A stretch of 64,000 nt of DNA from a candidate division WOR-3 bacterium. Lineage in GTDB: Bacteria > Hydrothermota > Tepidihabitantia > Tepidihabitantales > Tepidihabitantaceae. Below are positions 20,394 to 37,639 of this stretch, piece after piece. Under the pieces are notes generated by a model. That model had not been told where the DNA came from. It worked only from the letters and a program-made list of their open reading frames with translations, and searched no databases. The translations under genes and the position numbers were made by a program. Numbering within the stretch: position 1 is the stretch's first letter; each line of letters begins with the position of its first letter. The stretch covers positions 138,944 through 202,943 of the forward strand of contig JANLFQ010000003.1 of assembly GCA_024653355.1 (NCBI GenBank). Direction: 5' to 3'.

Positions 20394-22775
20394 ATGTGGT
20401 CTGATGTGAAATCAATTTTTAACGGGATTCAGGAGGCGGTACGCAAGGGAATTTTTGACTTTGACCCGGAGAAAATCGCCAAATTTTTACCTCTTGATGT
20501 TGCCTATGTGCAGAATTTCATTACGATGGTTTTACCCGCAGTTATTGGTCAAAGGCCGGGTTTAATCGTAATCTGGCTTGTCTACTCGTATCTCAGTAGT
20601 TGCCGAAAAAAACTCACTACTAAAGAATTAACTGATGAAGAATTAGAAGAATTAAAAGAAGAATTCAGAAATTTCTACGAAACCTACACCAGTGTCATAC
20701 AGAGGTGGGATGGTTATATCACCGCATCGGGAATTAAACCTTTAATAGAAATAATCGGCAATTTAAACCGGGAAAGAGCCGAAACGGATAAAGAGAGGTT
20801 TCTTGCTGGCTTAAAGCCCACCTATAATGTAATTATTGATAACCTTGATATCAAAAGGGAGAAATACGATGTAATTAAAAAAGAAATAGCAGATGGAAAA
20901 AATGTTTTAATTCTTGGCAACAGCGGTTCAGGCAAGACAGTTCTTATGATGCGTCTGGCTTACGACTTAATGAAAGAAGGTTGGCACTGTTTTATTGCCC
21001 AGGATTCTATAGATGTTCAGAAGGCACTAACTTTCTTACGGCAGAAGGAGTTTACCAACAATTCCCGGGTGGTGTTTATTGATAATGCGGCAAGATATAA
21101 AGATTCGGTTTTATCATTTATAAATGAGATTTACCAGCAAAGTTGTGATGTAAAAATCGTTCTGGTTGAACAAACGCCCCGATGGAAAAAGGATGTTAAA
21201 GAGAATCTCGCAGTATATAATTTTGTTGTAGAGGAAATTACTTTGACCGACGCCGAGGCTGTGTCTTATAGCAATCGTTACGGCAGAGATAAAAAATTTA
21301 TTCCCATAGCAAGAGGGGTGCTTCCAGTGCTGATTTTCCTGCAGAGAGGAAAAGAACAAAGTTTGGAAAAGGCGATTGACGATTTCTGGAATCCGCTTAC
21401 CGAACAAGAGAAAAAACTTATGCTACCGATACTGATAGTTTCTGCTTATTATCTTGATTATCCCCGCGAGGTGTTTGAGAGAATTTATGCCGATGACATC
21501 AGCACAATCGCAGAATTAGAAAAATCTAATATCATATCAAAAGATGATACCTGGATTTCTACCTGGCATCCATTTATATCGCAGGCAATCATAAAAAGGA
21601 TTTCTCTACCAAAACAGACTGTGTTAACGCACATTTGCCAACTCCGGGAGAATATTCCATCAGACAAAAAATATCACAATTTCTTATTCTCTTTTGGCAC
21701 TGAAATTCTTGTTCACGAAGAGGACAGCAAAGACGAAAGTTTCATTGATGAAGGCATCCAATTCCTTGACAGGGTGCTTCAGCTCGACCCCCAAGATGCC
21801 GAGGCATATAACAACCGCGGGGTTGCTTATGCTAAGAAGGGTGAGTATGACCTGGCGATAGAGGACTTTAATAAGGCGCTTGAACTCAACCCGAAATATG
21901 TTGAGGCTTATTACAACCGCGGTAATGTTTATGCTAGGAAGGGTGAGTATGACCGGGCGATAGAGGACTATAATAGGGCGCTTAAACTCAACCCGAACCT
22001 TGCCGCGGCATATGTAAACCGCGGGAATGCTTATGATGCTAAAGGTGAGTGTGACCGGGCAATAGACGACTACAATAGGGCACTTAAACTCAACCCGAAA
22101 TATGTTGAGGCATATTACAACCGCGGGAATGCTTATGCTGCTAAGGGTGATTATGACCGGGCGATTGCAGACTTTACGAGGGTGATAGAACTCAACCCGA
22201 ACCTTATTGAGGCTTATAACAACCGCGGGAATGCTTATGGCAAGAAGGGTGAGTATGACAAAGCGATTGCAGACTTTACGAGGGTGATAGAACTCAACCC
22301 CCAATATGCCGAGGTTTATTACACCCGCGGGGCTGCTTACGCTATAAAGTGTGAGTATGAGCTGGCTATCGCAGACTTTAACAAGGTGATAGAACTCAAC
22401 CCAAAAGATGCTAGGGTTTATAACAACCGCGGGAATGCTTATGCTATTAAGGGTGAGTATGACAAAGCGATTGGAGACTTTACAAAGGCGATAGAACTCA
22501 ACCCAAAAGATGCCGAGGTTTATTACACCCGCGGGACTGCTTATGCTGCTAATGGTGATTATGACCGGGCGATTGCAGACTATAATAAGGCGATAGAACT
22601 CAACCCGAAATATGCCGAGGTAATGGCGAATCTTGGGGGAGTTTATCATAAAGTAAAGGGTGATAAGGAAAAGGCGGAATTCTGGTATAAAGAGGCATTA
22701 AAGAACAAAGAGTTACTTCCCGACAAGGGCGCAAGGGTTCAAGAATGGCTGAAAGAACTTCTGGGGCAGAGATAG
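20394..22775 (+). CDS. STAND-like P-loop NTPase with C-terminal TPR array
   Basis: No named family is evident for this 793-residue protein. Residues 42-66 form a hydrophobic stretch that may be a membrane anchor. Residues 75-160 are charged and helical. A P-loop follows (GNSGSGKT, 175-182), with a Walker-B-like RVVFIDNA (D230-N231). A helical region (about 340-430) could be a winged helix, as in STAND ATPases. Eight near-perfect 34-residue TPRs (470-741) and one divergent repeat end the chain. In known STAND proteins (apoptotic, signalling and Avs-type defence proteins) the repeats sense a ligand and the NTPase drives oligomerisation; an effector would be expected at the N-terminus, but none is recognised here. 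Codon use is richer in A/T than in neighbours, which suggests transfer. It has its own promoter and overlaps cinA by 31 bases. Confidence 0.8.
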   Translation: MWSDVKSIFNGIQEAVRKGIFDFDPEKIAKFLPLDVAYVQNFITMVLPAVIGQRPGLIVIWLVYSYLSSCRKKLTTKELTDEELEELKEEFRNFYETYTSVIQRWDGYITASGIKPLIEIIGNLNRERAETDKERFLAGLKPTYNVIIDNLDIKREKYDVIKKEIADGKNVLILGNSGSGKTVLMMRLAYDLMKEGWHCFIAQDSIDVQKALTFLRQKEFTNNSRVVFIDNAARYKDSVLSFINEIYQQSCDVKIVLVEQTPRWKKDVKENLAVYNFVVEEITLTDAEAVSYSNRYGRDKKFIPIARGVLPVLIFLQRGKEQSLEKAIDDFWNPLTEQEKKLMLPILIVSAYYLDYPREVFERIYADDISTIAELEKSNIISKDDTWISTWHPFISQAIIKRISLPKQTVLTHICQLRENIPSDKKYHNFLFSFGTEILVHEEDSKDESFIDEGIQFLDRVLQLDPQDAEAYNNRGVAYAKKGEYDLAIEDFNKALELNPKYVEAYYNRGNVYARKGEYDRAIEDYNRALKLNPNLAAAYVNRGNAYDAKGECDRAIDDYNRALKLNPKYVEAYYNRGNAYAAKGDYDRAIADFTRVIELNPNLIEAYNNRGNAYGKKGEYDKAIADFTRVIELNPQYAEVYYTRGAAYAIKCEYELAIADFNKVIELNPKDARVYNNRGNAYAIKGEYDKAIGDFTKAIELNPKDAEVYYTRGTAYAANGDYDRAIADYNKAIELNPKYAEVMANLGGVYHKVKGDKEKAEFWYKEALKNKELLPDKGARVQEWLKELLGQR
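21801..22616 (+). repeat. Tandem 102-bp repeats encoding eight TPR units
   Basis: Eight consecutive in-frame 102-base units encode 34-residue TPRs of the form EAYxNRGNAYAxKGEYDxAIxDFxxAIELNPxxA. Blocks such as AACCGCGGGAATGCTTATG and GAACTCAACCC recur with few changes, so the array is conserved at the DNA level and not only in protein. This suggests recent expansion or ongoing homogenisation. Confidence 0.9.
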
Positions 22776-29910: not shown

Positions 29911-31614
29911 GTGGTTTTTTTAACGGTTATCGTGATTCTGGGACAGGTGGCACCGGGGATGAAGGTTGACATCGTCCGGTTTGCCGGCAATAAGAGTTTT
30001 TCGCACCGGGTGCTGGTCAACATTGTTCAGGTTAAACCCGGTGCATTGGCAATGGAGGCGTTACTGGACGAGGATGCGCGCACCCTTGAGGCGTTTTATC
30101 GTAATGAAGGTTTTTTTGATGTCCAGGTTGAGAAGGGTCTTGGCGTGGTCGCCCAGAAGGTGGTTGCAACATTCTATATTCAAGAAGGGGTTAGGGCAAA
30201 GGTGGCAGATGTGGTTTTTGAGGGAAACAGGGCGTTTACTGCCGAGAGGTTGAAACGGGTCTTGAAGTTTGGTGCCCAAGCACCCTTTTCTCTTGCTTCG
30301 GTCAAGGCGGGTACCCAGAGTCTGCGCAATTTGTATCTGAACACCGGATATCCTTTTGTAACGGTTGAGGACAGCTTTGAGCGCCGGGATACATTGGTGT
30401 TGGTTAGATATCGTGTTGCGGAGGGACCCCGCTGTTATATAAGGGATGTTCGGGTGCGAGGTAACAGGTCGGTACGCACGGCAACGATTTTGCAGAGCGT
30501 GGAGATAAAGAAAGGCGAGATGTTCTCACGGCGCCGGCTCGAGGAGGCACAACGCCGGGTTTATGCGATGAAGGTTTTTTCCCGGGTTCTGTTCTATGTG
30601 ATTCCGGATTCGCTCGCATCGGATAGCGTTGTGGTGCGGTTTGATGTGGTAGAAGGGGCGCAAAAGGGTATCGCCCTTGGCGTTGGTCTGGAAACGCCGC
30701 CCAGTCGGGCGCTCTTTTCGGTTGAATGGGAGCACAACAATGTGATGAATCGCGGGCAGTGGTTGATTGCCGAGGTTGTTTTTAGCCCGGATTTAAGCAA
30801 GAATTACCGGAGCAGTTTTGACCTGACCTGGCGGGTGCCTTATCTGTTTTGGACCCGGGTTGATTTTCAGAGCCATCCCTTCTTTTACTACGAGCGGTTT
30901 GACTCGGCACGGCAGCGTGAGTACGGAATAGAAAATGGTCTGCAAAAGGATATCGCACCTCAGTTGCGGCTCGGTCTGTTCAATCGGTTGCGGTTAGTTG
31001 CCGATACGAGCCGGGGGATAACCAATTCTCTGGCGCTGAGTTTGATATACGACTCGCGGGACAACTTTTTTGACCCGCAACGCGGTGTGTATTTCCAGCC
31101 CGGTCTTGAAGGCGCGGGTGGTATTTTGCTCGGGGACAATGACTTTGTCCGCGGGGTGGCGGACATCCGTGTCTATCAGTCACTGGGGCGGGGCTTTGTT
31201 TTCGCCGTGCGGGGGTTAGGAGGCAGGGTGATTCCTTATGGCAGGTCAGCCTCGGTACCTTATTACGAAGAGTTTTCGCTGGGCGGCAAGAACAATCTGC
31301 GGGGTTATCCGGACCGGGCTCTGGGACCGGATACGGCGCGCGGTGGCAGGTATGGACCGGTTATTTTGAATGCCAATGTTGAGGTGCGAAGCCCTTATAT
31401 CCTGCGCTGGGTTGGGGTTGTTGGTTTTATCGATTGGGGTCAGATTGCCGGTCAGAGGGATTTGAAACTACGGGGATTTGAAGTTGGCGCCGGTTTTGGT
31501 TTACGGCTGCGGACGCCGGTGGGCCCGATTCGGCTTGACTGGGGAAAACGTTTGAAAGGTGCGGCCGCCGGAGATTGGGGCAGAATTTATTTCGGGGTGT
31601 TGCATGCGTTTTAA
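29911..31614 (+). CDS. Omp85-family outer-membrane protein, TamA-like
   Basis: The 567-residue protein has a short signal-like start and three POTRA domains (about 18-90, 95-165 and 168-250; for example VDIVRFAGNKSFSHRV, ADVVFEGNRAFTAERL, RDVRVRGNRSVRTATI). A 16-strand-type barrel follows, with GGKNNLRGYPDRALGP near the lid loop and GVLHAF ending in Phe. Three POTRAs, the length and the overlapping tamB gene favour TamA over BamA (usually five POTRAs, about 800 residues). With TamB it would help insert proteins in, or carry lipids to, the outer membrane. GTG 29911 lies 4 bases after the ATPase stop; an ATG at 29906 is in a frame that stops at once. Confidence 0.85.
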   Translation: MVFLTVIVILGQVAPGMKVDIVRFAGNKSFSHRVLVNIVQVKPGALAMEALLDEDARTLEAFYRNEGFFDVQVEKGLGVVAQKVVATFYIQEGVRAKVADVVFEGNRAFTAERLKRVLKFGAQAPFSLASVKAGTQSLRNLYLNTGYPFVTVEDSFERRDTLVLVRYRVAEGPRCYIRDVRVRGNRSVRTATILQSVEIKKGEMFSRRRLEEAQRRVYAMKVFSRVLFYVIPDSLASDSVVVRFDVVEGAQKGIALGVGLETPPSRALFSVEWEHNNVMNRGQWLIAEVVFSPDLSKNYRSSFDLTWRVPYLFWTRVDFQSHPFFYYERFDSARQREYGIENGLQKDIAPQLRLGLFNRLRLVADTSRGITNSLALSLIYDSRDNFFDPQRGVYFQPGLEGAGGILLGDNDFVRGVADIRVYQSLGRGFVFAVRGLGGRVIPYGRSASVPYYEEFSLGGKNNLRGYPDRALGPDTARGGRYGPVILNANVEVRSPYILRWVGVVGFIDWGQIAGQRDLKLRGFEVGAGFGLRLRTPVGPIRLDWGKRLKGAAAGDWGRIYFGVLHAF

Positions 31615-34600
31615 GCGGCGTTGGTGGCTCCTGGTGTTCGGATTTGTGATTGGTTTGCTGGTAGTGGTGGTTTTATTCCGGCAGGAGGTTGGACGGCTGG
31701 TGTTGAAAAGGACACTGGCGGCTTTGAGTAAGGGGATTAACGGCGAGATTACTTACGGTAACATCAGCGGTGATATATTTTCTGCTCCTCAGGTGAGCGA
31801 TTTAAGGATAGTTTTAAACTCTGATTCAATTCTGATTAAACGGCTCGGGGTACGGTACGACATTCTTTCTTTAATACGGGGTAAAATTGTCCTGCGCGAT
31901 GTTCAACTGGATAGCGTGCGGGCTTACTGCTCCGGGGTCAGGACAGAAGTCGGTGCCGGGCAACCAATCAAGAGCTGGAGTTTCCCCGATATTACGGTCA
32001 GGCAACTGGCAGTGAAGGGCGGTGCGGTTTATATCAAAGACGAGAAACGGATTGATTCGTTGCGGATAAATCTCCGCCTTCGGGCAAGGAAGTCGGTTGC
32101 GGTGCTTAACCTTGACTCGGCGCAATTTTTAATGGTTAAGGAAAGTTTGGCACTCCGGCATATCGGTGCCCGGGTGGAGTTGACCGGGGATTCATTAAAG
32201 ATGAGCGAAGTTCAAGCGATGAGCCGGGGTTCAAGGTTTCGCGGTAGTGTGGGGATTGATTTGAGGTCAAGAGAGGTCACGGCTGAAGTTACCGAGTTGA
32301 GTGTCAATCTAACGGAGATTTTGCATATCCCGGGGCGGGTTTGGTTTCAAGGGGAGGCAGAGGTGGGAGAGAAGAGAAAGGTGGCGGCAGGTCGTTGGGT
32401 TGCTGATGGGCTGCTCTGGAGGAGAGTGAACCTGCCAAGGCTGACCGGGGGGTTTAATCTTCAGGAGTCAACATTTCAGTTGACGCTTGCCGGTAGTGAC
32501 CGTGAGATTGGGCGGTTTGCGCTTGATGGGTGGGTTGATTTGCAGCGGTTTGATTTTACCGCCTCAATTCAGGTTGACAGTCTGGCGGTGTCCCGTTTGG
32601 AGCCTACGCTACCCGATTTTCGGTTATCGGCACAGTTTCAGTCGAGCGGTGTGCTGGGTTCTCTAAGTTCCTTACTGGGCTATAAGCGAGATTCCAGTCT
32701 TACCGATTCAATTAACTTGCTGGTGAAGGGCAAAGTGACCGAATTGGGGATTGATACGCTGAATGCGGTTGTTGATTATCGACAGGGCGGTGTGCAGTTA
32801 CGAAGTTTGACCCTGAGAGGTCCGGTGGGAAACTTTGACTTCGTCGGTGTGGCGCGTGCCGGGTTGTTGAAGGCGCGGTGTGATATGGAAAATTTTGATT
32901 TAAATGTTGCGGGGCGGTTGTTCAATGTTGAACTCACCGGACGTGCGGATGGCGAACTGTCGGCTTTCTGGGAAAAAGATTCCTGGGGTTTTTCCGGTGT
33001 TGTTTATTTTGATGGATTCCGCTGGAGTAAAGTGGAGATTACCAACGGTCTTATCGCGGCGGATGTTAATGGCAGTGGTCCGCTGCGGGGAAATTTTGTT
33101 GACCGAATGGCGGGCAGATTGGCGCTGGGCGGCGAAGGCATCGTCGTAGCAAATCAGGAGTGGAATGCCGGACAGCTGGTATGGACCGGACCCGATTTTG
33201 AAGTGAGGTTTGATCGGGAGAACGCACGCTGCGGTGCGCTGGGCGAGCTGCATTTTCAAGGGCGCGCGGTGGTTTGTTCTTTGAATATGCTGGAGTATGC
33301 GACCGAAAAGGAGACGCTTGCCCTTCTTGAACCGTGCCGGCTGGTTTTAAGCGATTCGGTTGTTGACCTGACCGGTGTGAAGTTTGCGGTTGCCGATGGT
33401 GAATTAAATCTGAACGCCAAAATTGTTAAGCAGCGGTCACCCTGGTTTGAAATTGGGTTGCGCCATATCAACATCAGGAAGGTACAGCGGTTGCTGGGTA
33501 TCAATACCGAGTTGTGGGGGGTGTGTGACATTGATGTCGTCGGTGGTGATTCGGTGTTTGTCAAGTTTACCGGGGTTGATTTTGGGGTGCCGAGCCTTTC
33601 TTTGAATCTGAAACATATTCAGGGGAGTTTGGTTGCCGGGCGCGCGGGTTGCCATTTAGCAGGGCTGGAGTTCGTGTGCCGCCAGGACACCAGTTATATA
33701 AAAGGTGATTTTGACTGGAAATTGAGTCCCGGGTTTCGCTTAACAGGTGCCAGGCTGGACTTTGCGCTTGTTGACCCGGGAAACTGGATTTTTGAGGTGA
33801 CCAAGCCTTATGTTGAGGTTACCCAAGGGGTCGTGTTTGGTGCGTTCAAGGTGGAATGGCAGCCGGCGCATCTGGTGCTTTCCGGAAGGTCAAGGGTGAG
33901 CAGGGGTGTTATCAGGGTACCAAGCGTTGCCACCACAGTAGATGGGGTGGAAGCGGAGATTACATTTAATGAGGACCGGCTGGTCATTGAGAAGTTGAGC
34001 GGAAAGAGTGCCCGGGGTACGGTTACTGCTGAGGGGATTGTGGATTTGAGCCCGAGCGGCGAAATCGATTCGGTGGCATTTAAGACCCACTTCACCGGCG
34101 TATCAGCGGTGCCGATGCCCCAGGTTTATGCCATTGGTAGGGGGGATATCAACATCGTCTGGCATCAGGGCGAAGAACGGGCGTTTATCTCGGGAAACAC
34201 GGTGGTGGATGAGGCGCTGGTGGCAATCGGATTTGGTGGTCAGCAGGGTGGTGGCAATGGTGCAGCCGGTGTTGATTATGACATTCGGGTCCGCGCGGAC
34301 CGCGGTGTTTGGCTGCGCAATCGGGAGGCGGACATTGAACTGGCGGTGGATTTGACGGTCCGTCAGGTGGGTGAGGAGGCGGTGTATATCGGTGAACTTG
34401 TTACCCGGCAGGGCAATGTGTACTACCTTGACCACATCCTGCGCGTTACTGAGGGAACGCTGACCTTTGACAATGTGAGCCGATTTGACCCAAAACTTGA
34501 TATCACCGCGGAATTGCCTATTACCCACAACGGTAAAAAGGAACAGCCGGATAAGGTCGTGCTCAGTTTAACCGGAACGCTTTCGGAACCATCATTTGTA

Positions 34601-35011
34601 TTTCGTACTGAACCGCCGGTGTGGGACGAAACTCAGATTCTCTCTTATTTGAGTTTGAATGTCACGATGGACGAAATTTCCGCAATGGAACAGAAGGAAA
34701 TTTTGAATAGGCTTTTGTCAGAACGGCTCCTCGGTTATTTCCAGACTCAGGTTGCGAAAAAGGTCAGAGAGTTTGTCAGTCTTGACTATCTCGAACTGGA
34801 GACCGGTATTCTTTCGGGACAGGGCGCCCGGGTTACGGTGGGAAAATATGTTGGGCGTAATCTCTATGTTTCTTACACCCAGAACTTTACCGGTGAATTG
34901 AGCCCGGCTTTTTTGATTGAGTACTATCTCAATCGGCGCAACGAACTGATTGCCGAGCGTTCTTCAGATGGCAGGTACTCTTTGCGCTATCGTTTTAAAC
35001 TACGTTATTGA
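31604..35011 (+). CDS. tamB: TamB/DUF490-family translocation and lipid-transport protein
   Basis: The 1135-residue AsmA-like protein has an N-terminal signal anchor (RRWWLLVFGFVIGLLVVVVLF). It then consists almost entirely of short beta-strands forming the hydrophobic groove of VPS13-like bridge proteins. The C-terminal DUF490 region is clear: DYDIRVRADRGVWLRN, ELVTRQGNVYYLDHIL, TLTFDNVSRFDPKLDI, and a tail ending RYRFKLRY. It spans the periplasm and moves phospholipids or assists protein insertion together with the preceding Omp85 protein. I use ATG 31604, which starts just before the anchor and overlaps the previous stop by 11 bases; the frame is open further upstream, inside the barrel gene. 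The stop overlaps the start of priA. Confidence 0.9.
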   Translation: MRFKRRWWLLVFGFVIGLLVVVVLFRQEVGRLVLKRTLAALSKGINGEITYGNISGDIFSAPQVSDLRIVLNSDSILIKRLGVRYDILSLIRGKIVLRDVQLDSVRAYCSGVRTEVGAGQPIKSWSFPDITVRQLAVKGGAVYIKDEKRIDSLRINLRLRARKSVAVLNLDSAQFLMVKESLALRHIGARVELTGDSLKMSEVQAMSRGSRFRGSVGIDLRSREVTAEVTELSVNLTEILHIPGRVWFQGEAEVGEKRKVAAGRWVADGLLWRRVNLPRLTGGFNLQESTFQLTLAGSDREIGRFALDGWVDLQRFDFTASIQVDSLAVSRLEPTLPDFRLSAQFQSSGVLGSLSSLLGYKRDSSLTDSINLLVKGKVTELGIDTLNAVVDYRQGGVQLRSLTLRGPVGNFDFVGVARAGLLKARCDMENFDLNVAGRLFNVELTGRADGELSAFWEKDSWGFSGVVYFDGFRWSKVEITNGLIAADVNGSGPLRGNFVDRMAGRLALGGEGIVVANQEWNAGQLVWTGPDFEVRFDRENARCGALGELHFQGRAVVCSLNMLEYATEKETLALLEPCRLVLSDSVVDLTGVKFAVADGELNLNAKIVKQRSPWFEIGLRHINIRKVQRLLGINTELWGVCDIDVVGGDSVFVKFTGVDFGVPSLSLNLKHIQGSLVAGRAGCHLAGLEFVCRQDTSYIKGDFDWKLSPGFRLTGARLDFALVDPGNWIFEVTKPYVEVTQGVVFGAFKVEWQPAHLVLSGRSRVSRGVIRVPSVATTVDGVEAEITFNEDRLVIEKLSGKSARGTVTAEGIVDLSPSGEIDSVAFKTHFTGVSAVPMPQVYAIGRGDINIVWHQGEERAFISGNTVVDEALVAIGFGGQQGGGNGAAGVDYDIRVRADRGVWLRNREADIELAVDLTVRQVGEEAVYIGELVTRQGNVYYLDHILRVTEGTLTFDNVSRFDPKLDITAELPITHNGKKEQPDKVVLSLTGTLSEPSFVFRTEPPVWDETQILSYLSLNVTMDEISAMEQKEILNRLLSERLLGYFQTQVAKKVREFVSLDYLELETGILSGQGARVTVGKYVGRNLYVSYTQNFTGELSPAFLIEYYLNRRNELIAERSSDGRYSLRYRFKLRY

Positions 35012-36837
35012 TGTTTTGTGATATCGTCATTCCCCGGACGCCGCTCAACGAGTTGACCTACGAACTTCCCCGGGATATGGAAGTTGCACCGGGTGACTGC
35101 GTACGGGTACCGTTGCGCGGTAAGCAGGTAACGGCGGTGGTTTTCGGATTGAGAAAAGAGTTGCCCGAGTGCCAGGTGCCGGGCAAACTACAGCAAATTA
35201 CTAAAATTCTGGCCCGGGGGATGATTTCAAGCGAACTGCTTTGTTTGGTACGGTGGGTGGCGGACTATTATGTTGCCAGTATGGGTGAAGTGCTCAGTTT
35301 TGTTCTGCCGCGCGGGGTTTTTCCGCAAAAGAGAACCGCTCCGTACCCGCAATCGAGCACCGGGGTTGCTTCGATTTGTTCGGATGGTGGTGCTGATGCA
35401 GAAGCCGTTGCGAGACAGAATTTTTCGGTGCTGGTTTGTTCCGAGAGCAAAGAGAAGGAGGCGGTGGCGGATTTTTTAAAGCGGGCACAGCGGTACGGTT
35501 CAGTCGTTTTTTTGATGCCCGAGCGGCGGCTGAAGGAGTGGCGCAACTTAGTGCGCGATATATGGGGGGACGGGGTAATTGAGTACCACAACAAACTTTC
35601 ACCGGCAAATCAGCGCAAGGCGTGGTTAAAAGCGGTAGAGGCAGAACAGGTCGTGGTTGTTGGTGTGCGCGGGGCGGTTTGGGCGCCAGTTAAGAAACTT
35701 GCCGGGGTGGTGATACTCGAAGAGCACTTTTCAGGTTACAAGGAGGAACGGCGACCAGGTTGGCATGCCCGGGATGTGGCAATTGCCCGGGCAAAGTTTG
35801 CCGACTGTCCGGTTTTGCTTACTGACCGGACACCAACCCTCGAGACTATTGCCAACATTAAGTCGGGTCGCTTTACCCTTCTGGCACCGCTGGAGTTACC
35901 AATAAACCGGGAACGAATTTTTGTAGTTGATATGCGCTTGCATCGCGGGGAGTTGCTTTCACCGCTCCTGTTAACCGAGTTAAAAAGGGCAGATGAAAAA
36001 AATCGGGTTGCGCTTCTTTTTTTAAACAGAAAAGGTGTAAGCCGGTTTGTGGTTTGCCGGCAGTGCGGTAATGTGTTGCGATGTTCGCGGTGCGGTGTGC
36101 CCGGGGTACTTACCGCCGATTCCCGGCTTACCTGTCGGTACTGCGGAACCGATTGTCCGGCACCCGACAGATGTCCTTCTTGCCAGGGGGTTGATTTTGA
36201 GTACCGGGCGCCCGGTGTTGATATGGTGCAAAGGAAGTTAAAGGAGTATGGGTTTTCTGGTGCCGGAACAAAGATAGTCGTTGGAACCCGGAAACTGCTG
36301 AGTCAGGATTTTCCCGAAAACCTTGGGGTCGTCGGCATTGTCAATCTGGACACCGAATTCGCCCTGCCCGACTTTCGTGCCCGGGAGCGGGTCTGGCAAC
36401 TTTTGTGCGATGTTATCAACCGTGTGCAGCGGCAGCGTGCCCGGCTGGTTATTCAAACCTATTGTCCCGAAGAGTCGGTGCTGGACTGCTGTTTGCGGGG
36501 GGATAGCGCACAGTTTTTCAAAGAGGAGTTACGGCTCCGCAAGGAGGCGGGATTTCCGCCCTACCGCCGATTGGTTTTGCTGACAATTAAGGGCGCGGAT
36601 AGGGAGTTGGTGGGCAAACAGTCCGAACAGTTGCGCCGCATTATTGAGGAGCAGGGCAAAAAGATTCAGCCGCGCCTTGAAATTCTGGGTCCGGTAACAA
36701 CGATGAAGGCGGGAAGGTTTAATGCCCGGCTTCTGGTTAAAGTCCCGACCACAATAATGCCGGGCAAGGTTATCCCCAGAATAAAACTGCAAAACAGCCA
36801 GTTACGGATTGAGGTTGACCCGCAGGAAATAGTTTAA
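35011..36837 (+). CDS. priA: PriA-like primosomal protein N', ATPase motifs lost
   Basis: PriA normally restarts stalled replication forks as a 3'-5' helicase. This 608-residue protein keeps the DNA-binding N-terminus (FCDIVIPRTPLNELTYELP), the eight zinc-binding cysteines in four CxxC pairs (CRQCGNVLRCSRCG, CRYCG, CPSC) and the C-terminal domain. The helicase core is degenerate. The Walker A position reads VLVCSESKEKEAV with no GKT. The DEEH box reads LEEH (236-239). The motif VI arginines (QxxGRxGR) are replaced by INRVQRQRA. Flanking landmarks such as LMPE, YKEERRPGWHARDVAIARA and LPDFRARERVWQLL align well, so the homology is secure. Actinobacterial PriA is a known precedent for loss of ATPase motifs. 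ATG 35011 overlaps the tamB stop. Confidence 0.85.
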   Translation: MFCDIVIPRTPLNELTYELPRDMEVAPGDCVRVPLRGKQVTAVVFGLRKELPECQVPGKLQQITKILARGMISSELLCLVRWVADYYVASMGEVLSFVLPRGVFPQKRTAPYPQSSTGVASICSDGGADAEAVARQNFSVLVCSESKEKEAVADFLKRAQRYGSVVFLMPERRLKEWRNLVRDIWGDGVIEYHNKLSPANQRKAWLKAVEAEQVVVVGVRGAVWAPVKKLAGVVILEEHFSGYKEERRPGWHARDVAIARAKFADCPVLLTDRTPTLETIANIKSGRFTLLAPLELPINRERIFVVDMRLHRGELLSPLLLTELKRADEKNRVALLFLNRKGVSRFVVCRQCGNVLRCSRCGVPGVLTADSRLTCRYCGTDCPAPDRCPSCQGVDFEYRAPGVDMVQRKLKEYGFSGAGTKIVVGTRKLLSQDFPENLGVVGIVNLDTEFALPDFRARERVWQLLCDVINRVQRQRARLVIQTYCPEESVLDCCLRGDSAQFFKEELRLRKEAGFPPYRRLVLLTIKGADRELVGKQSEQLRRIIEEQGKKIQPRLEILGPVTTMKAGRFNARLLVKVPTTIMPGKVIPRIKLQNSQLRIEVDPQEIV

Positions 36838-36847
36838 CAGTTGGTAA

Positions 36848-37639
36848 TTAACGGTGCAGATTTCTTTTCAGCCGTAATGCCGGTGCGGCGTTTAATCCCC
36901 GGGATTGGTCAAGAGAAACGGTCGTGTCAATGTACATTGTTGCCCGGATAAACGCCTCCTTTGCACCAATCGAGTCACCGATAAACTCGGCGGCAACGCC
37001 GAGGTTGTTCAGGATTGCGCCGGCTAAATCGGCAGGGGATGGTGTTAGAGTAGAAAGTGAGCGCTCTGCCAAGCGGTAATAGAAAAGGGCGCTTTCGGGA
37101 TAAGAGTAGTACTGGAAGATGTAACCAGTGTTGAATGCCAGCCAGCCGGTGATACAGGATGCGGCGCGCCCGCTAAGGGCGTGTGTCAGTTCAAGACCTT
37201 TTTGAAATTCAACGAGCGCCGATTGAGGTTGCGCAAGTTCATTGTAGGAGAAACCGATATATCCATAAACCACCGCCTGACCTATTGAGTCTTTTCTTAA
37301 CTCTTTTTTCTGCAAGAGTTTTGTTAACCGGGCGATGGCGTCCCGCAACTCACGATTTTCAATCATAGTATCGATTGACACCAGCTGCCGGTTCAGTTCC
37401 GGGGAAAGGAAGGTGCGAACGGTGGTGTCAATGTACACCTTGCCCAGCATTCGGGTGTAAGCGCTGAGGTCTACTTTAGTCAATTCGGCTGTTTTTCGTC
37501 CGGGCTCACTTTTGGGTGGCTGGGAAAGAATCCGGCTGAGGAACAAAAGGATGACCAGGACAACAACACCGACCGTAACCCAGAGCCACAGATTGCGCAG
37601 CGAGAGCCCGGGGTTTGGCTTTTTGGGCTTTTTCGGCAC
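36848..37639 (-). CDS. Membrane-anchored TPR-like protein
   Basis: This 263-residue protein has a basic N-terminus (PKKPKKPN), one membrane helix (LWLWVTVGVVVLVILLFL) and an extracytoplasmic or cytoplasmic helical domain with weak TPR-like pairs (about 110-250: AVVYGYIGFSYNELAQPQSA, AGAILNNLGVAAEFIGDS). I do not recognise the family. It may be a small scaffold. The two copies of the phrase YIDTT(V) at about 69 and 236 are curious but short. It starts with GTG 37639, 5 bases after a TAAAAT box, and converges with priA at a 10-base gap. Confidence 0.75.
   Translation of the reverse strand: MPKKPKKPNPGLSLRNLWLWVTVGVVVLVILLFLSRILSQPPKSEPGRKTAELTKVDLSAYTRMLGKVYIDTTVRTFLSPELNRQLVSIDTMIENRELRDAIARLTKLLQKKELRKDSIGQAVVYGYIGFSYNELAQPQSALVEFQKGLELTHALSGRAASCITGWLAFNTGYIFQYYSYPESALFYYRLAERSLSTLTPSPADLAGAILNNLGVAAEFIGDSIGAKEAFIRATMYIDTTVSLDQSRGLNAAPALRLKRNLHR

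Follow-up and report, generated by a model that had tools for sequence, protein, structure and literature searches.

A WOR-3 PriA with an eroded ATP site, probably a passive loading platform, in a phylum where the motor appears to have been lost several times

The stretch of DNA analyzed here (“the window”) comprises 64,000 nucleotides from an uncultured bacterium of candidate division WOR-3 (assembly GCA_024653355.1, contig JANLFQ010000003.1, positions 138,944 to 202,943 of the forward strand) and contains the gene of the replication restart protein PriA. The priA frame is open from 35008 or 35011 to 36837 on the forward strand, and its start codon at 35011 overlaps the stop codon of the upstream gene tamB (TGATG). 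Residue numbers follow the reading with 609 amino acids. The parts of the gene that matter for the following are:

35011-36837, forward strand: priA gene, putative pseudohelicase, 608-609 amino acids, from the frame, profile matches and alignment; start ATG 35011, with the alternative start TTG 35008 in frame just upstream
35023-35310, forward strand: 3'-end-binding domain (3'BD), residues 6-101; PF17764, 65.2 bits; predicted local distance difference test (pLDDT) mostly about 90
35311-35421, forward strand: short linker, mostly disordered, at the place of the E. coli winged helix, residues 102-138; from pLDDT, structure match and spacing
35440-35460, forward strand: eroded Walker A (motif I) SESKEKE, residues 145-151; from alignment
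35716-35727, forward strand: motif II LEEH (DEEH in E. coli), residues 237-240; from alignment
36055-36183, forward strand: cysteine-rich region with four cysteine pairs, C350 to C392, and all eight zinc ligands kept; from alignment
36409-36432, forward strand: motif VI DVINRVQR (QVAGRAGR in E. coli), residues 468-475, arginines kept, glutamine and glycine lost; from alignment
36559-36819, forward strand: PriA C-terminal domain (CTD), residues 518-604; PF18074, 29.5 bits, cut-off 26.9

Sequence comparison confirms that the frame codes for a PriA orthologue. It matches TIGR00595 with 288.4 bits (curated cut-off 230.35), and the matches to PF17764 (3'-DNA-binding domain) and PF18074 are both over their cut-offs. 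The longer general PriA models PRK05580.1-3 give at most 331.9 bits and stay below their cut-off of 813, and the best of the actinobacterial PRK14873 models gives 128.8 bits with cut-offs of 812 and higher, so that the protein is nearer to the general PriA type than to the actinobacterial lineage. A second intact priA, which the preliminary description of this locus had named as fatal to its proposal of an ATPase-dead PriA, was not found in the source genome (1.88 Mb, 98.18% complete) with PF17764 and TIGR00595; the remaining TIGR00595 matches were rejected as candidates since they fall in Mfd, UvrB and, by coordinates, RecG.

Aligned with E. coli PriA, the window PriA no longer has a motif I, and damage is seen in motifs II, III, V and VI. 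The E. coli Walker A sequence GVTGSGKTE corresponds to SESKEK(-)E, a shortened loop that has neither the glycines nor the threonine of a P-loop and does not contain GxxxxGK[ST]. This is in agreement with the serine/glutamate/lysine stretch described before, and no GKT is placed at the site by the alignment. In motif II DEEHD has become LEEHF, confirming the exchange of the Mg-binding aspartate for leucine. Motif III changes from GSATP to TDRTP with SAT gone, and motif V from GTQMLAKGHHFP to GTRKLLSQDFPE with KGxxF gone. The absence of the arginines from motif VI, which had also been claimed, turned out to be an error: the motif aligns without gaps and both arginines are present, and it is the glutamine and both glycines that were lost. 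The statement that all catalytic ATPase motifs are lost is therefore correct for motif I and the aspartate of motif II but too broad for the remainder, as the catalytic glutamate, the histidine of DEEH and the motif VI arginines remain. In Pfam searches DEAD, ResIII and Helicase_C have no match in the window PriA at E-values up to 1, whereas two intact WOR-3 PriAs (L023 and L030) do match. As Walker A is absent in 17 out of 17 covered members of the window's family (18 members including the window), neither chance nor a fault of the assembly can explain its erosion.

The AlphaFold model of the window PriA (11 sequences; pLDDT 83.2, predicted template modelling score 0.83) shows all parts of a PriA but the winged helix, with both helicase lobes predicted to be kept as folds. 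The best structural match is 6dcr, an E. coli PriA with the winged helix deleted (Foldseek E 1.9e-42). The comparison with 6dcr_B gives a VIA Z of 35.0 at 2.9 Å over 561 residues, with two RecA-like lobes in the PriA arrangement, and other E. coli PriA structures reach Z 29.4 (8fak) and Z 29.0 (4nl4). Residues 106-136 have a pLDDT below 50, and only 43 residues lie between the end of the 3'BD and motif I compared to 122 in E. coli PriA. Judged from sequence and model, the winged-helix DNA-binding domain is absent. The earlier statement that the DNA-binding and zinc regions remain can thus be kept for the 3'BD and for the zinc cysteines (8/8 by alignment), but it applies to DNA binding only in part.

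The condition of the window PriA is shared by many relatives. We surveyed 147 WOR-3 genomes and obtained PriA frames from 134 of them (in the following G and L label genomes and loci, f and g families and genera). The TIGR00595 scores of the frames uncut by contig ends range from 649 bits down to approximately 133 bits. The Walker A columns of the 134 frames have GK[ST] in 77 cases and lack it in 54, with two frames uncovered (G115 and G045) and one broken, namely that of G086, which begins in unrelated sequence and was dropped from the eroded count (55 to 54). Some of the frames are truncated where a locus or contig ends. The 54 PriAs without GK[ST] span 28 genera and 13 families, namely f1 (the window's own family), f2, f3, f5, f6, f12, genus g53 of f22, and f32-f37. 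Intact PriAs occur in 22 families, among them f4, which belongs to the same order as f1, and genus g52 of f22. Within the window's family the remnants of Walker A vary by genus, G116 for instance keeping TGSG without the lysine. The first residue of motif II is aspartate in 18 of the 55 PriAs without GK[ST], G086 being included in this tally. Among 80 named PriA loci from genome contigs 78 have GK[ST] and both exceptions are WOR-3; these loci were chosen for their likeness to the window PriA and its family and are therefore not an unbiased sample.

Further observations from the survey concern other states of the gene. In 13 of the 147 genomes no match reaches the PriA level (TIGR00595 E-values of 7.9e-16 at best); for G070, G079, G084, G085, G130 and G146, which are 94-97% complete, either assembly gaps or a real loss of priA could be the reason. 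In f32-f34 and f37 (L099, L100, L102-L109, L125) three residues are deleted at Walker A in the alignment, and f32 and f33 keep most of motif II (DEEQ); the loss has taken another form here than in the family of the window. In f17-f23 and f25-f27 (e.g. L013 and L122, with the exception of G034/G035 of f22) Walker A and DEE[HQF] are intact and motif VI resembles QVxGRxR[KRT]; the position of its second arginine is taken by K, R or T, possibly a half-way state of the motor.

To count the losses the eroded lineages were placed on trees of rpoB and rpoC. In a tree of 60 genomes and E. coli (short search, support by the Shimodaira-Hasegawa-like approximate likelihood ratio test, SH-aLRT) the intact f4, represented by G102, groups with f1 (96.7), followed by f2 (88.7) and then f3+f5. 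In the same tree f6 (with f7) is sister to the window's order (100), g53 is sister to the intact G032 (100) and f32-f37 are united (99.8). The same arrangement is obtained in a more carefully calculated tree of 25 rows, where G102 and f1 are joined with 84/93 and the fork that unites both with f2 is weak (64/64). Under the assumption that a lost P-loop is never rebuilt, the best rpoB-rpoC trees lead to seven losses: f1; f2; f3+f5; f6; g53; f12; f32-f37. The number becomes five if the eroded members of the window's order are grouped without G102, which an approximately unbiased (AU) test does not reject (p 0.121), and four if the G102 gene is regarded as foreign, since f1-f6 could then share one loss. 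The sequences thus suggest that the motor was lost several times within WOR-3, four to seven times depending on the way of counting. The preliminary description had called an independent loss in an unrelated phylum of evolutionary interest. Independence from the known precedents seems to hold, given the PRK14873 scores far under the cut-offs and the GK[ST] kept in nearly all named loci, but several losses in the phylum take the place of a single one.

Two points weaken this count. The number of losses in the window's own class hangs on one fragmentary genome, G102 (82% complete, approximately 440 contigs), whose priA contig has a GC content of 36.9% compared to 42.4% of the rpoB contig and whose PriA has its best BLAST matches among intact f9/f10 proteins. 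A PriA tree calculated without the motif columns, where G102 stands beside f2 (SH-aLRT 97), speaks against contamination as the source of this intact gene, although the fragmentary bin and the GC gap leave it some probability. The second point is f12, which in the 60-genome tree is weakly placed beside the intact f11 (69). Its union with f3 in the PriA tree without motif columns we ascribe to long-branch attraction, as f12 lies outside all other families but f11 in the rpoB-rpoC tree (98.2). Evolution is fast in some of the eroded families: the stem branches in the PriA tree measure 1.08 changes per column for f3, 1.13 for f6, 2.04 for f12 and 0.87 for g53, compared to 0.41 and 0.25 for f1 and f2.

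We also considered the loss of the winged helix as a cause of motor loss. The linker between 3'BD and motif I is short (28-68 amino acids) in f1-f6, f8-f10, f28-f30, f32-f34, f36 and f37, some of them with intact motors, and a longer segment of 92-115 amino acids is present in the eroded f12, f35 and g53. Because short segments also occur in families with intact motors, the two losses appear to be separate, and only a loose association is left. The opposite deviation is seen in f13-f16 (L002, L003, L005, L006, L007, L009, L010), where approximately 192-206 instead of approximately 120 residues lie between 3'BD and Walker A, possibly two winged helices.

The eroded genes are under purifying selection. 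For the window and G111 the ratio of nonsynonymous to synonymous substitution rates (dN/dS) amounts to 0.18 over the whole gene and is lower in lobe 1 (0.13) and lobe 2 (0.08). Over 13 eroded pairs it ranges from 0.07 to 0.31, compared to 0.05-0.22 over 12 of 13 intact pairs, one being saturated; these values stem from a simple counting method, some dS are near saturation and a few genomes occur in two pairs. All eight zinc cysteines are present in 117 out of 117 WOR-3 PriAs looked at, 53 of which are eroded. Giving each family the same weight, we find 28 positions whose conservation is at least 90% in the 77 intact and less than 50% in the 54 eroded PriAs, in E. coli numbering 203, 224, 226-231, 254, 255, 321, 355, 357, 380, 387, 424, 428, 455, 491, 495, 545, 547, 576, 580, 583, 584, 592 and 633. 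Twenty of them lie within the helicase motifs Q, I, Ia, II, III, IV, V and VI, whose limits we assumed for this tally. At least 80% conserved in the eroded set are the eight cysteines, Y18, G29, Y87, Y88, P310, E322, Y327, K328, P359, E362, G490, G538-T539, R569, E572, Q597, R625 and P631-P632. This indicates that the residues of the ATP cycle that disappeared are largely the same from one separate lineage to another, with much of the remaining protein preserved.

The position of the gene can be added to this. It is the last in a run of three genes:

29911-31614, forward strand: gene of an Omp85/BamA-type outer-membrane protein (PF01103, PF07244), first in the BamA-tamB-priA run
31604-35011, forward strand: tamB, directly upstream of priA, start 31604 inferred (PF04357, 108 bits); its stop overlaps the priA start

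A tamB match lies at most approximately 330 bases upstream of priA in 32 out of 36 loci of f1, f2, f3, f5, f6 and f12, the exceptions being the four f12 loci. With the same query it was found upstream in nine (f8, f18, f19, f25, f26, all intact) of 68 other loci whose upstream sequence covers 400 bases or more, and it was not found in f9, f10 and the eroded f32-f37, where the gene order may differ or the sequence may be too distant. In the window's own class, and there only (f12, g53 and f32-f37 are outside this argument), the linkage suggests that the eroded gene is the orthologue in its old place and not a second copy. Downstream, a protein of 263 amino acids without Pfam match is encoded on the reverse strand (36848-37639), convergent with priA; a relative adjoins priA in 14 of the 15 other f1 loci searched. 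Elsewhere in the window (20394-22775, forward strand) we note a protein of 793 amino acids with the P-loop motif GNSGSGKT in the N-terminal half and, by eye, a long run of similar repeats that resemble tetratricopeptide repeats.

PriA is usually introduced as a helicase, and a loss of helicase motifs is known from actinobacterial PriA. It was the latter that the preliminary description named as the precedent of an ATPase-dead PriA. A precedent exists, but the proven one is that of Deinococcus-Thermus (PMC4504706), and actinobacterial PriA is described as ‘smaller and very divergent’ (PMC1193525). The PriA of Deinococcus radiodurans shows no measurable ATPase and negligible unwinding and still binds single-stranded DNA (ssDNA), forks and DnaB (PMC4504706). 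Both proteins are PriA orthologues with degenerate motifs I and II. The Deinococcus-Thermus protein has a K to R exchange in its Walker A, whereas the window PriA has an entirely rewritten loop and no winged helix, and the WOR-3 losses belong to a different phylum and are repeated beside intact relatives. In E. coli the single exchange K230R abolishes ATPase and helicase activity, and from the conservation of the PriA motifs it has been argued that unwinding is of selective advantage (PMC4504706). The ATPase-dead K230A PriA is used to reload DnaB in vitro, and PriA-PriB restart in vivo is stated to proceed without need of the PriA ATPase (PMC10175261). K230A/K230R and priA300 resemble the WOR-3 case in being ATPase- or helicase-dead and still assembling primosomes (PMC10175261, PMC4504706, PMC2764109), but they are laboratory mutants and not a natural fixed state. 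In the open-licence literature we found no report of PriA motor loss in WOR-3 or Stahlbacteria, by name or by topic, and passages of PMC3290774 and PMC9825169 gave no evidence on it.

A hint towards a mechanism arises from the structure of E. coli PriA with PriB and a fork. Fork binding swings the cysteine-rich region by approximately 85 degrees, and together with lobe 2 and the CTD it forms a pore round the lagging-strand ssDNA and exposes the PriB site, while the 3'BD holds the leading strand and a loop of lobe 1 is wedged into the junction (PMC10175261). The window PriA shares the 3'BD, the two helicase lobes, the cysteine-rich region and the CTD with E. coli PriA (6dcr, 8fak, 4nl4) and lacks Walker A, the Mg-binding aspartate and the winged helix. 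As the retained parts match those that serve fork binding and loading in E. coli, the window PriA, going by sequence and model, probably works as a passive loading platform and not as a motor. We consider it likely, with a probability of roughly 0.75, that the only PriA found in this genome is a pseudohelicase that recognizes forks by their shape and recruits DnaB without ATP. At a stalled fork the leading-strand 3' end would be bound by the 3'BD and the junction occupied by lobe 1 with its loop, while the lagging-strand ssDNA would be enclosed by the cysteine-rich region together with lobe 2 and the CTD. PriA would thus be the landing site for putting DnaB back, aided by a loader of the DciA type, with no ATP bound or hydrolyzed by PriA at any step. 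Since a PriA without motor cannot unwind a lagging-strand duplex, its substrates would be restricted to forks or D-loops that already expose lagging-strand ssDNA or to forks opened by another enzyme, for which RecG is a candidate. The inactivity of the ATPase, the binding of forks, the recruitment of DnaB and the roles of RecG and DciA are what we infer for the window PriA from these comparisons.

Several observations weigh against this interpretation. The catalytic glutamate and the histidine of motif II (both glutamates and the histidine are kept) and both arginines of motif VI persist, and a lysine stands in the column of K230, though without the P-loop glycines or threonine. The Pfam model of the PriA zinc ribbon, PF18319, has no match in the window PriA in spite of the eight cysteines. 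Without the winged helix, which in E. coli binds the parental duplex, the fork specificity may differ. The loader chain of E. coli uses PriB, DnaT and DnaC, and at the PriB contact positions (E. coli 438, 481-483) the window PriA does not keep the E. coli residues. Finally, DciA, RecG and DnaB also occur where PriA is intact, and their presence therefore does not explain the loss. The replication restart by a structural loader that had been proposed for this locus agrees with the sequence and its predicted fold, with the selection on the gene and with our searches, which gave no second copy.

The possible partners have been searched for in the genome and in the phylum. DnaB is present in the window genome (556.9 bits) and in 130 of the 147 genomes, RecG in the window genome (759.8 bits) and over cut-off in 115 of the 147, and a DciA homologue in the window genome (68.9 bits, over the Pfam cut-off; the DUF721 models matched below their cut-offs) and in 116 of the 147. 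Mfd and UvrB are present in the window genome, and AddA and AddB were identified there by best match, below the curated cut-offs. PcrA, UvrD or Rep was not found in it, the sole match of the UvrD family being the AddA-like protein. A genome without a helicase of the PcrA/UvrD/Rep type is unusual. Helicases of the UvrD type, AddA included, occur in at least 144 of the 147 genomes, and the matches listed include strong ones of the UvrD family in other eroded lineages. The AddA-like match of the window genome (G000) lies at C1:420653-421804 with the AddB-like protein adjoining.

These data bear on the possibility that RecG or another helicase regularly unwinds the forks and that PriA lost its motor after handing over this task; a further helicase had also been considered in the preliminary description. 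The wide occurrence of RecG would allow for it, and in E. coli priA300, a helicase-dead allele, suppresses the defects of recG but makes those of ruv worse (PMC2764109). The priA300 effects show that the motors of PriA and RecG meet on the same substrates, but not that a handover took place. RecG is also found where PriA is intact, and by inspection neither RecG, DnaB and DciA nor, among the matches listed, the UvrD-type helicases separate eroded from intact lineages, so that no gene tracking the motor loss emerged from these candidates. The absence of PcrA, UvrD or Rep from our matches in the window genome, in contrast to the strong UvrD-family matches listed for other eroded lineages, is a further point against it, and we regard a handover as plausible but rather unlikely.

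It is less probable still that PriA left replication restart for another scaffold role, e.g. in origin initiation or together with SSB. The missing winged helix and the unkept PriB contact residues could be read in this way. Yet the 3'BD, the cysteine-rich region, the CTD and W83/Y87 are kept in the window PriA; W83/Y87 we take to be the SSB pocket, assuming that the E. coli numbering is that of Klebsiella plus one.

Very little speaks for a weak or unusual ATPase in which the catalytic glutamate, the motif VI arginines and the shifted lysine bind the nucleotide via a reshaped loop. Both glutamates and the histidine in LEEH, both arginines in DVINRVQR and the lysine in the K230 column would be its basis. 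Against it stand the shortened loop without P-loop glycines or threonine, the leucine in place of the Mg-binding aspartate, the loss of SAT and KGxxF, the Walker A remnants that differ by genus within the family, and the abolition of the E. coli ATPase by a single K to R exchange (PMC4504706). Hardly credible is a functionless gene on its way out, as the long PriA-tree stems of the eroded f3, f6, f12 and g53 and the 13 genomes without a PriA-level match, which may be assembly gaps, are opposed by the dN/dS values of the eroded pairs given above, by the eight cysteines kept in 53 out of 53 eroded genes and by open frames of 602-712 amino acids in all seven genera of the window's family, cuts by contig ends apart.

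Starting from the pseudohelicase reading one may go a step further and ask whether the shape of the eroded proteins has changed. The AlphaFold model of a more eroded protein from f3 (pLDDT 84.6) matches the fork-bound E. coli PriA (8fak_H) with Z 28.8 at 3.1 Å over 579 residues, compared to Z 27.8 (510 residues) and 27.5 (503 residues) for free PriA, while the window model fits the free form better than the fork-bound one. As rows approximately one Z apart are practically tied, this preference of the f3 model is only a hint. It leads to a tentative proposal, which we consider doubtful: the motor may have been discarded approximately seven times in WOR-3 where restart needs PriA only as a sensor of fork shape and a ring-like platform, and the eroded PriAs may have drifted to a shape ready for loading, in which the zinc region has already moved into place for the ssDNA pore. 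If this is true, motor loss would be a favored change of mechanism and not mere decay.

PriA pseudohelicases as such are already known, with Deinococcus-Thermus as the proven case. What is new here is the phylum, a Walker A rewritten completely, a winged helix lost in addition and, most importantly, a motor loss that recurs next to relatives with an intact motor. Together with the strong selection on the rest of PriA this repeated motor loss represents a natural experiment, in which the comparison within WOR-3 separates the residues for fork recognition and loading from those of the motor. The intact sisters, G102 near f1 and f2 and G032/G033 beside G034/G035, serve as controls. The question of what the ATPase of PriA is for thereby becomes testable by comparison within WOR-3.

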